This document shows positions 4,771 to 22,448 of a stretch of 33,959 nucleotides of DNA, piece by piece; within the stretch, counting starts at the first letter, position 1; each line of letters opens with the position of its first letter. The notes below the pieces were generated by a model that ran no database searches, was not told the origin of the DNA, and worked only from the letters and a program-made list of their open reading frames with translations. Source of the DNA: Clostridium sp. (GTDB taxonomy: Bacteria; Bacillota; Clostridia; Clostridiales; Clostridiaceae). Made by a program: the position numbers and the translations under genes. The stretch is from positions 1 through 33,959 of the forward strand of contig JAAZDF010000042.1 of NCBI GenBank assembly GCA_012512905.1, written 5' to 3'.

Positions 4771-5724
4771 ATGATTATTAATTCAGTAGGAGAAAAATTT
4801 TTGAGTAAGGAAAATTTAAATCTTCTTTCAGAAGAAAGTGGAGAAGAAATTTTATATATTCCATATAGAGACTTTGATAAAAATTTAGATATTTTAGCTA
4901 AGGCAGAGGCTTTAATTTCTATATCGGGCTTAAAAGTTGAAGATTTAGATAAATTTCCAAAACTAAAGTGGGTTCAATCATTTAGCGCAGGAGTTAATAC
5001 TTATCCTTTTGATGAACTAAAGGATAGGGATATAATTCTTACAAATACTTCTGGTATACATGCTCCCCAAATTACTGATCAAATTATGGGTGTAATTTTA
5101 AGTTTTTCAAGGCGTATACTTGAGAGTATATATAATAAGGAAAATAAAGATTTTAACAGTAATTATAATTTTGAGGAGCTTAAAGATAAAAATCTTTTAA
5201 TAATTGGAGCTGGAAATATTGCAAAACTTCTTGCGAAAAAAGCTAAGGCTTTTGATATGAAAATTACAGGTCTTAAAAGAACAGTAGTGGAGATGGATAA
5301 TTTTGATAAAGTAAAGTCAATAAACAAGTTACACGAAAGCATTAAGAATGCAGATTATGTTGTTAATATACTTCCCCTCACAAAGGAAACCTATAAGATA
5401 ATAGGAAAAGATGAATTTAATCTTATGAAAGAAACTGCAATATTTGTGAACTATGGTAGAGGAGCAAGTGTTGATGAAAAAGCTCTTGTAAATGCATTAA
5501 AGAATAAAAAAATAAGAGGAGCGGCTTTAGATGTTTTTGAAAAAGAACCTCTGCCAAAAGATAGTCCTCTTTGGGAAATGGATAATGTGATAATAACTCC
5601 CCACTCAGGTGGATTTAGTCGTGAAAATGAGCTTAGAGCGGTAAATGAAATCAAAAACAATATTATTAAATATAAAAATAATAAGAAATTAAATAATATT
5701 GTAGATTTGGATTTAGAATATTAA
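4771..5724 (+). CDS. NAD-dependent D-2-hydroxyacid dehydrogenase family protein
   Basis: GAGNIAK Rossmann motif, NYGRGASVDEKAL, ALDVFEKEPLP, ITPHSGG. ATG 4771 follows RBS aagaggtgg. Confidence 0.88.
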   Translation: MIINSVGEKFLSKENLNLLSEESGEEILYIPYRDFDKNLDILAKAEALISISGLKVEDLDKFPKLKWVQSFSAGVNTYPFDELKDRDIILTNTSGIHAPQITDQIMGVILSFSRRILESIYNKENKDFNSNYNFEELKDKNLLIIGAGNIAKLLAKKAKAFDMKITGLKRTVVEMDNFDKVKSINKLHESIKNADYVVNILPLTKETYKIIGKDEFNLMKETAIFVNYGRGASVDEKALVNALKNKKIRGAALDVFEKEPLPKDSPLWEMDNVIITPHSGGFSRENELRAVNEIKNNIIKYKNNKKLNNIVDLDLEY

Positions 5725-5738
5725 AATTGATATAAAAA

Positions 5739-5778
5739 CACCAAAATACCCAAGATGAAAATCTTGGGTATTTTGGTG
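5739..5778 (-). terminator. Perfect 18-bp hairpin, minus-strand terminator
   Basis: CACCAAAATACCCAAGAT-GAAA-ATCTTGGGTATTTTGGTG; minus strand continues TTTTTATAT. Confidence 0.75.
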
Positions 5779-5796
5779 AGACTTAATTTTATAGGT

Positions 5797-6123
5797 TTAT
5801 ATTTGTTCGAATTTTACAGCAGTACCTGAAGCGCTAACAAGTAAGATATTCTTATTAGGACCAAGAACCTGATAATCTAATGTAAGACCTAAAACTGCAT
5901 CTGCATTTAACTCTAAAGCTCTCTCTTCAAGTTCTTTTAGTGCATCGATACGAGAATTTATTAAATCTGTTTCATAAGAGTTATCTTGTTTATTAAAATA
6001 ATCTGAAAATCCAGCAGCCCCAGTATTGATATTCTTTATTTGAGTCATGACTTCACCAAAAACTATACCTGTATACTCTGTAACAACCCTATTATTAACA
6101 GAATCTGTTGTTGTAATTATCAT
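5797..6123 (-). CDS. YbjQ family (UPF0145) putative heavy-metal-binding domain protein
   Basis: MIITTTDSV...GIVFGEV.....ALKELEERALELNADAVLGLTLDYQVLG...LLVSASGTAV typical of YbjQ. Confidence 0.88.
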   Translation of the reverse strand: MIITTTDSVNNRVVTEYTGIVFGEVMTQIKNINTGAAGFSDYFNKQDNSYETDLINSRIDALKELEERALELNADAVLGLTLDYQVLGPNKNILLVSASGTAVKFEQI

Positions 6124-6221
6124 TTTTCCACTTCCTTTATATTAACTTAATACAATTATATCTATAAAATCTTATTATTTTATTAAAATTAATGTAAATT
6201 TAATGTTTTTCATAGAGACTG

Positions 6222-6237
6222 ATACCCTAATGGGTAT
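6222..6237. promoter_or_regulatory. Palindromic candidate operator, CsoR/CstR-like
   Basis: ATACCC-TAAT-GGGTAT in the divergent intergenic region between the YbjQ and ArsC-like genes. Confidence 0.4.
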
Positions 6238-6296
6238 ATAAAGTCTTAGTAATATGATAGTATTTAGTTAAAGGATAATTAAGGGAGGTAATATAT

Positions 6297-6677
6297 ATGA
6301 AAATAGCTTTTATTAGCAATGGAAATAGTTTGAGGTCACAACTTGCTGCTTCAATAGCTAAAAAAGACTTTTTGGATTTTGAAATTATTTCTGTAGGAAG
6401 CGAAAAAGATGATAAAGATCCAACAGTATATAGTGTTTTACAGGAAGAAGGATTAGATCTTGAAAATATAGAGTTTAAATCGTTGTTGGATTTAGAATTT
6501 GATTTAGACTATGCAGTTATAGTAGGATGTGAGGAAGGATGTCCTTTAGTTTTTGCAGATAAAATATTTGAATGGGAACATATAGTGAATCCTAAAGATG
6601 AGTCTATAGATGTTTATAGAGAAGCAAGAAATCAGCTGAAAATAGAAATTAAGAAATTAGCAAAAGAAATACTATAA
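6297..6677 (+). CDS. ArsC / low-MW phosphotyrosine phosphatase-like protein lacking the P-loop nucleophile Cys
   Basis: MKIAFISNGNSLRSQLAAS aligns to ArsC CTGNSCRSQ-type P-loop; GCEEGCP aligns to the C-terminal redox Cys region. RBS gggaggt. Confidence 0.75.
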   Translation: MKIAFISNGNSLRSQLAASIAKKDFLDFEIISVGSEKDDKDPTVYSVLQEEGLDLENIEFKSLLDLEFDLDYAVIVGCEEGCPLVFADKIFEWEHIVNPKDESIDVYREARNQLKIEIKKLAKEIL

Positions 6678-6682
6678 AAAAA

Positions 6683-6718
6683 TTCCGGTAATGAATATAT
6701 TCACTACCGGAATTTTTT
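6683..6718. terminator. Bidirectional intrinsic terminator
   Basis: TTCCGGTA...TACCGGAA with inner TGAATATATTCA, flanked by A/T tracts, between convergent genes. Confidence 0.75.
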
Positions 6719-6720
6719 AT

Positions 6721-7557
6721 TTAAAATCCACGATCAAAAGTAGCTGGATCTGGTCCAAGTCTTTTATTTTGATTCAAATTATCAATAATTTCAACTTCAT
6801 CTTTTGTTAAGGAGAAATCAAAAATATTTATATTTTCTTTTATTCTAGAAGGGGTTTCTGATTTTGGTAGGGCAAGAACTTTGTTTTCATAATGCCACCT
6901 AAGTATTACTTGAGCGGCTGTTTTACCATATTTATAGCCAATATCTTCAATTTGCTTTATATCAAGTTCTTGTTTACCTTGCATAAGTGGTCCCCAAGCT
7001 TCAACTTGTATATCATTATCTTTGCAAAACTTGATTGTTTCTTTTTGACTTATAAGAGGATGAATTTCAATTTGATTTATTGCAGGAACAATTTTTGTGT
7101 TTTTCATCAGGTTTTCAAGATGATGAATCTCAAAATTACATACACCAATTGATTTAGCAAGACCATCATCATACAGTTTTTCAAGAGCTTTATATGTATC
7201 TATATACTTATCTTCACCAGGCCAATGAACTAGGTAAAGATCAATATAATCAAGCTGCATTCTTTCCAGGCTGTCATGAAAAGCTTTTATAGTTTTGTCG
7301 TATCCTTGATCAGAGTTCCATACTTTCGTCGTAACAAATATTTCTTCTCGTGGTACATCGGAATCTTTAATCGCTCTACCAACACCTGCTTCATTATCAT
7401 AAATATAAGCTGTATCGATTAGTCGATAGCCAGCATTTAATGCTTCAAGTACTGCATTATAAACATCTTTTCCATCTTTAATTCTAAAGACACCATATCC
7501 TTGAGCAGGAATATCTAATCCGTTATTTAATTTCCAATTAGGAACATTTATTTTCAT
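6721..7557 (-). CDS. Aldo/keto reductase
   Basis: GYRLIDTAYIYDNEAGVGRAIKDS, TTKVWNSDQGYD, DYIDLYLVHWPG, KSIGVCNFE, LPKSETPSRIKEN. Confidence 0.95.
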   Translation of the reverse strand: MKINVPNWKLNNGLDIPAQGYGVFRIKDGKDVYNAVLEALNAGYRLIDTAYIYDNEAGVGRAIKDSDVPREEIFVTTKVWNSDQGYDKTIKAFHDSLERMQLDYIDLYLVHWPGEDKYIDTYKALEKLYDDGLAKSIGVCNFEIHHLENLMKNTKIVPAINQIEIHPLISQKETIKFCKDNDIQVEAWGPLMQGKQELDIKQIEDIGYKYGKTAAQVILRWHYENKVLALPKSETPSRIKENINIFDFSLTKDEVEIIDNLNQNKRLGPDPATFDRGF

Positions 7558-14584: not shown

Positions 14585-15727
14585 TTAATATCTAAAGTTT
14601 GCGATTACACCTGAATCATAATCAAGTTCATCATTTGGCACAATTAGAACTTTAGATTTATTCTTAAGGGATAATATAGCAATATCATTCAGAATATCAT
14701 TATTTATATTCTTATCAATATTAGCGAATCCATTTTCTTTATTAACTTTACCATTAACAATAAAATCTCTTTTTATTAGTATTGAGTAAATTCTCCCTTG
14801 GAAGGCAGCTATTGAAATTTCATTTAAATCAGAAGATGAAAGTTCAGTATTTTTATTAATTTCATAGTTGTTTTTTATAGCAGCAACTTCACTTGTATAA
14901 TCTGGTTTTAATATACTCCAAGCTTCAGTTCTTATTTCATCTAAACTCATAGAAGCAGGGTTTTTTCTTATAGAATCTTCAAGCAAATTATTACTATGAC
15001 TTAAAGATTTAAAAAGTTTATTATGTTCAGGTAATGAAAGAAGAATTAACGGTACTTTAGCATCTTTAGAATAATTATCATTAATATATCTATCAACCAT
15101 TCTGAAAAATCTTATATTATCATTTTTATCTTTTTCATTGGCTGTTTCACTTCCACCCCTGTAAAGTGTATCTCCTCTAGAACCCAGGCTTTGAGCAGTA
15201 ACATTATGTTCTCTTTGCTCATCTTCATATATGTCGGAAATGGAAAATTTTTCGTCTTCTGGTATTTGAACTTCACGTATAGCATATCTATTACCTTCAT
15301 AAAGTTTAAATTCTTTTTTATCAAGAGCGAGCACTCGATAATTATCATTTGTTTGATAAGCATTTAAAAGGGGTTTAATATAAAAAGCGTCAGAAACTTG
15401 ATAAAATGAATCTAAGTCTCTTTGAAGCTTATATAAATATATGTCTTTTTTGTCTGCAAGTACAGCAAGGCTGTCTAATTGATAATTCCAAAAGTCATTA
15501 TCACTTGCTAAATTATTTAATTCCTTAAGAGTTTCTTTAAAGTCACCATAGTTTTTATGTTTTTTTATCTCTGTTTCAACTTTTCTAATTAAATTCTTAA
15601 ATAAAATAGAATTTTCATTAGCTCCTGTTGAAAATCTTGTAGTTGGTAAATATATTGAGATAAAGGGACCTTCATTATTATTATTAAGTATTTCCTCTGA
15701 AAAATTATTTAAAATATTATAATTCAT
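14585..15727 (-). CDS. baeRF-like (bacterial archaeo-eukaryotic release factor family) protein
   Basis: N-term GPFISIYLPTTRFSTGANENSILFKNLIRK; LGSRGDTLYRGGSETANEKDKNDNIRFFRMVDRYI; C-term RIYSILIKRD...GVIANFRY pattern. Confidence 0.65.
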   Translation of the reverse strand: MNYNILNNFSEEILNNNNEGPFISIYLPTTRFSTGANENSILFKNLIRKVETEIKKHKNYGDFKETLKELNNLASDNDFWNYQLDSLAVLADKKDIYLYKLQRDLDSFYQVSDAFYIKPLLNAYQTNDNYRVLALDKKEFKLYEGNRYAIREVQIPEDEKFSISDIYEDEQREHNVTAQSLGSRGDTLYRGGSETANEKDKNDNIRFFRMVDRYINDNYSKDAKVPLILLSLPEHNKLFKSLSHSNNLLEDSIRKNPASMSLDEIRTEAWSILKPDYTSEVAAIKNNYEINKNTELSSSDLNEISIAAFQGRIYSILIKRDFIVNGKVNKENGFANIDKNINNDILNDIAILSLKNKSKVLIVPNDELDYDSGVIANFRY

Positions 15728-21678: not shown

Positions 21679-22176
21679 ATGAAATCCAAAAATAAAATTA
21701 TATCAAGCTTACTTGTAGGTGCTATAATTATCCTATCCTTATTGGGATTTGAAATAGATTTTAATAATTTTTTATCAGGAAGTGACAACACAGAGAAAAT
21801 AGTTGAACAGAAATCAGATGAAAAAATTGATATTTCTGAAGATGGATATTATACAAGTAAAGAAGACGTTTATAAATATATAGATAAGTATGAAAAACTT
21901 CCTAATAATTATATAACTAAAAAAGAAGCTAAAGACTTAGGCTGGGATAGTAAAAAAGGTAATCTTTGGGATGTTAGTAATAAAAAAAGTATAGGTGGGG
22001 ATTATTTTGGGAATAGAGAAAATAAACTTCCAGATAAAAATGGTAGAAAATGGTATGAGTGCGATATAAACTATAATGGTGGCTATAGAGGAAAGGAAAG
22101 AATCGTATTCTCAAATGATGGGCAGATTTACTATACGGATGATCACTATAATTCATTTATTAAGCTCAGCGATTGA
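21679..22176 (+). CDS. Barnase-family (N1/T1) ribonuclease with N-terminal signal/TM segment
   Basis: LPNNYITKKEAKDLGWDSKKGNLWDV...KSIGGDYFGNRENKLPDKNGRKWYECDINYNGGYRGKERIVFSNDGQIYYTDDHY; barnase K27, E73, R83, R87, H102 equivalents conserved. Confidence 0.95.
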   Translation: MKSKNKIISSLLVGAIIILSLLGFEIDFNNFLSGSDNTEKIVEQKSDEKIDISEDGYYTSKEDVYKYIDKYEKLPNNYITKKEAKDLGWDSKKGNLWDVSNKKSIGGDYFGNRENKLPDKNGRKWYECDINYNGGYRGKERIVFSNDGQIYYTDDHYNSFIKLSD

Positions 22177-22190
22177 TAAAGGTGCATGAT

Positions 22191-22448
22191 ATGGAAAAGA
22201 TATATTTAAATGGGAAAAAAATGATAGAGCTGGAGAATACTCACAGATATTTAAAAAGAAAATTTATGTTCGACAATTATTATGGGGAAAATTTAGACGC
22301 TCTTTGGGATTTATTGTCAGAAAGGAAGGATACTATTAAAGTTATTATTTTTAATAGTGAGGATATTTTAATAAATCAAGGAAGTTATGGAATTAGCCTT
22401 TTAAAGGTTTTTAAAGACCTTGAAAACGTAGAATTAATATTAAGATAA
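22191..22448 (+). CDS. Barstar-family ribonuclease inhibitor
   Basis: FMFDNYYGENLDALWDLLSE matches the barstar inhibitory helix; ATG 22191 follows aaaggtg, directly after the barnase gene. Confidence 0.92.
   Translation: MEKIYLNGKKMIELENTHRYLKRKFMFDNYYGENLDALWDLLSERKDTIKVIIFNSEDILINQGSYGISLLKVFKDLENVELILR

Follow-up and report, generated by a model that had tools for sequence, protein, structure and literature searches.

A serine at the P-loop nucleophile position of an ArsC-fold protein encoded in a Clostridium genome

The arsenate reductases (ArsC) of Staphylococcus aureus pI258 and Bacillus subtilis use three redox-active cysteines, Cys10, Cys82 and Cys89: after a phosphatase-like displacement, a disulfide cascade leads finally to a Cys82–Cys89 disulfide that is reduced by thioredoxin (PMC2714181). 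The protein described here is encoded at positions 6297–6677 (+) of a 33,959-nucleotide stretch of DNA from Clostridium sp., referred to as the window. It resembles the thioredoxin-coupled enzymes in its fold, its length, an x5-R-S loop containing GNS and a downstream cysteine pair, but has serine as the nucleophile, leucine for Cys15, asparagine for the general-acid aspartate and a C-x3-C pair, with a spacing of x3 rather than the x6 that separates Cys82 and Cys89. The same substitution in the same fold is found in the engineered C10S/C15A mutant of pI258 ArsC (1jf8, 1jfv) and in YwlE C7S (4kk4), all of which retain folding; in those proteins the Cys-to-Ser change was made in the laboratory, whereas here it is present in a genome sequence. 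Structures of C15A ArsC also exist, as judged from PDB titles. No natural ArsC with a serine P-loop was found in the open literature searched, which is not proof that none exists.

The ATG-started reading frame, which reads MKIAFISNGNSLRSQLAAS..., encodes a product of 126 residues with the N-terminus MKIAFISNGNSLRSQLAASIA... and is preceded by a Shine-Dalgarno sequence, AGGGAGG (6282–6288, +), 8 bases 5' of the ATG. The codons given for the P-loop in the initial annotation (att agc aat gga aat agt ttg agg tca caa) were confirmed, as was its assignment of serine to the nucleophile position (Ser7, codon AGC, 6315–6317) and leucine to that of the second loop cysteine (Leu12) within the loop SNGNSLR, in which R13 is retained; the codons for S7-N-G-N-S-L-R13-S14 span 6315–6338 (+). 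The two downstream cysteines that it reported are likewise present, as C78 and C82 of VGCEEGCP (GCEEGCP region, 6525–6545, +). Residues N98-P99 (6588–6593, +) occupy the place of the ArsC general-acid Asp-Pro. In the gap between this gene and that of an aldo/keto reductase there is a stem-loop terminator (6677–6718), which was called by the scan on the − strand; on the + strand, too, the palindrome finishes with a run of T.

That the predicted protein adopts the ArsC/low-molecular-weight phosphatase fold, as had been proposed, is not in doubt. The Pfam LMWPc profile (PF01451) matches with E=1.2e-7 and a score of 32.4 bits (cut-off 23.2). The nearest solved structures in a PDB sequence search are ArsC enzymes with E down to 2e-9, the value for the best single-sequence match, the glutaredoxin-type ArsC of Synechocystis. 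The AlphaFold2 model, built from an input of nine aligned sequences, has a pLDDT of 90.9 and a pTM of 0.87, and Foldseek with this model returns ArsC structures first, headed by 1jf8 with a TM-score of 0.78, with LMW-PTP structures also among the matches. The curated NCBIfam cut-offs lie far above the scores for both the thioredoxin-type (TIGR02691, 34.3 versus 174.3 bits) and the glutaredoxin-type enzymes (TIGR02689, 44.3 versus 157.6 bits), and in comparison with the latter the protein lacks the same residues as above. Where LMW protein tyrosine and arginine phosphatases have C-x5-R-S and a DP motif with the general-acid Asp, it has S-x5-R-S and NP. Matches on plasmids are ArsC-like sequences alone, with 30–35% identity and mostly annotated as arsenate reductase. 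A search of viral contigs revealed no relative, and a search of the protein against defence families gave no match.

Relatives were recovered from genome contigs with a three-row alignment as the query; a single-sequence query found none. The close group, identified in GTDB genomes, comprises Proteiniclasticum ruminis (two genomes), P. aestuarii, a metagenome-assembled genome near P. aestuarii, and Youngiibacter fragilis, and these five orthologues are 50–55% identical to the window protein over the full length. Members were found in 3 of the 56 genera of the order, and in a class-wide sample of 391 genomes only the window's own genome contained one; its genus is represented by one genome, the host itself. 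The sequence PLVFADK is identical across all close members and the longer core GC-EGCPLVFADK is conserved in the group. The members make up a small, narrow and uncharacterised enzyme group of Proteiniclasticum, Youngiibacter and the window's genus. The cysteine-bearing orthologues (L032:5028-6393, also L033-L036) form an uncharacterised ArsC-like group in their own right, adjoining a gene for a TtcA-like protein. A fusobacterial ArsC-like protein (L039:5085-7219) has the loop CNGNSFKS, in which Lys replaces the loop Arg; its gene is found between those of a TauE/SafE-like permease and a rhodanese-like lipoprotein, 3' of an FmdE-like gene (names assigned by eye), a setting that is possibly sulfur-related.

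The nucleophile position is occupied by cysteine in all five orthologues and in all 36 homologues aligned, which were chosen by similarity and not by motif, so that serine occurs in the window sequence alone; its codon, AGC, is one base away from the Cys codon TGC. In the initial annotation an orthologue alignment had been put forward as the check on the serine, with cysteine in the orthologues counting against the proposal. By that standard a conserved repurposed family is refuted: the serine is not a family feature, and the position at which a conserved pseudophosphatase family would keep the replacement is cysteine in 5/5 orthologues. Leu12 is uninformative in this respect because the whole group lacks the second loop cysteine, with A, T or V at this position in the orthologues. 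The general-acid aspartate, present within xDP in canonical homologues, is asparagine in the window protein, in pairwise comparisons too, and in all four orthologues that reach this site. With both residues missing throughout the group, the departure from normal ArsC chemistry predates the loss of the nucleophile in the window. The cysteine pair is C-x3-C in the window protein and in a canonical ArsC paralogue encoded in the same genome, whereas it is C-x4-C in the orthologues. This paralogue (CIHNSAR, GCGVVCP, WGLDDP) means that canonical activity in the host need not depend on the gene at 6297–6677.

The orthologues share not only the core and the two missing residues with the window protein but also their place in the chromosome. 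In the relatives the gene order is YbjQ (−), TtcA-like (+), ArsC-like (+), followed in Proteiniclasticum, where the stretch is long enough, by an aldo/keto reductase (−) and MgsA (+). The window keeps this order minus the TtcA-like gene, which lies directly upstream in L032-L036 and is missing from the whole host genome (98.75% complete), where the best match has 32% identity (7.6e-14). The loss of the partner gene coincides in this one genome with that of the nucleophile, which is suggestive. A TtcA-like gene or near relative was present in 51 of 58 genomes searched (E<1e-30; mostly same family and order). A functional unit of the two genes was considered, and the case for it is weak, as the TtcA-like gene usually has no ArsC-like neighbour. 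Elsewhere in the window, a barnase-like ribonuclease gene is directly followed by a gene for a barstar-family inhibitor (21679–22448; Pfam 1.4e-21 and 1.3e-15), and a baeRF-family (bacterial archaeo-eukaryotic release factor-like) protein matching baeRF families 3, 6, 7, 8 and 11 is encoded at 14585–15727.

Upstream of the ArsC-like gene, the promoter region contains a perfect inverted repeat, ATACCCTAATGGGTAT (ATACCC-TAAT-GGGTAT, 6222–6237), which is a candidate CsoR/CstR-type operator. The host genome encodes two CsoR-family repressors, the first of which is located downstream of copA/copZ-like genes and has an H-x3-C pattern. The second (C239) lacks the His, and a similar site, ATACCCCTATATGGTAT, precedes its own gene. 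We take H-x3-C to be the pattern of copper sensors and the absence of the His to be as in CstR, so that C239 is presumably CstR-like. Chance would give 0.5 sites like that at 6222–6237 in the window with two mismatches allowed. A genome-wide search for ATACCC-N4-GGGTAT found no site beyond 6222–6237, so no regulon could be built, and no such site was found before the TtcA-like gene in the relatives. The pseudo-palindromes to which most CsoR-family proteins bind have G/C runs of at least four (PMC10318464); the run in this repeat is three. A connection between C239 and the ArsC-like gene is a lead, not a result. An Rfam scan of 5700–6800 revealed no element.

In our view the frame at 6297–6677 is probably, at slightly better than even odds (about 0.55), a real and maintained gene for a lineage-specific pseudoenzyme, a reading that depends on one base of a draft assembly and on one genome. 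Of the two main rivals, the first is that the serine codon is a sequencing or consensus error, the true residue being Cys as in all relatives. The single-base difference between AGC and TGC, unique against 36 homologues in a loop that is otherwise kept, and an assembly in 248 contigs would fit such an error, but the gene has no other defect, the loop also differs from close relatives at I6, N10 and L12, and base errors are rare within a 34-kb contig; we regard it as unlikely. About as unlikely is the second, early decay of the gene, in which its function disappeared together with the TtcA-like partner and drift removed the catalytic cysteine. Decay is consistent with the loss of that partner, with a small genome (1.88 Mb) and with a branch that is the longest in the group (0.71 versus about 0.3), but the frame and the Shine-Dalgarno sequence are intact, the GC-EGCPLVFADK core is conserved, and the TtcA-like gene occurs widely in the family with no ArsC-like neighbour, which leaves the functional link unproved. 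The divergence also lies inside the range of the neighbours: the protein is 55.6% identical to that of P. ruminis, against 41.2% for the transporter, 50.3% for the hydroxyacid dehydrogenase, 50.0% for YbjQ, 63.2% for the aldo/keto reductase and 65.9% for MgsA (41–66% for the five syntenic neighbours). The same additional distance of the host lineage is seen in YbjQ, which is 50% identical to its counterparts in the two relatives, these being 77% identical to one another, and the GC content by codon position resembles that of the neighbours. An intact gene with neighbour-like divergence argues against decay. Nothing in the sequence points to general decay, nor does it prove strong constraint, one genome at such divergence yielding no useful dN/dS.

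The protein might still be an enzyme, using Ser7 or C78/C82 in other chemistry, or it might recognise phospho-proteins and trap its substrate as phosphoserine. C78/C82 are retained, and the structural matches include YwlE C7S, whose active-site serine is phosphorylated according to the title of 4kk4, but the general acid is missing and there is no direct evidence; we consider this improbable. On the pseudoenzyme reading, an ArsC-fold protein of the narrow clostridial group would already have been without the second P-loop cysteine and the general acid, and one base change in the window's lineage would then have removed the nucleophilic cysteine, in a genome without the TtcA-like gene. With no equivalent of Cys10 the first displacement step should not run, and from established chemistry a Cys-based arsenate or phosphate-ester cycle should be blocked. 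The proposal that the nucleophile had been lost with the oxyanion loop and the cysteine pair retained holds (Ser7, R13, C78/C82). With its backbone and R13 the loop may still bind an oxyanion or a phospho-group, C78 and C82 could perhaps form a thioredoxin-reducible disulfide, and the remaining role might then be that of a binding or redox-switch protein. A more specific version, in which a protein with both the binding and the redox-switch function came under the control of a CsoR/CstR-type operator once the TtcA-like gene upstream had been lost, is improbable. The protein might act as a sensor, adaptor or decoy; no operon partner supports such a role.

Should the serine prove real and fixed, the protein would be the natural equivalent of the laboratory Cys-to-Ser variants of ArsC and YwlE, and an ArsC-fold protein kept without its chemistry. 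The larger point is the cysteine-bearing group itself, which has neither the general acid nor the second loop cysteine.
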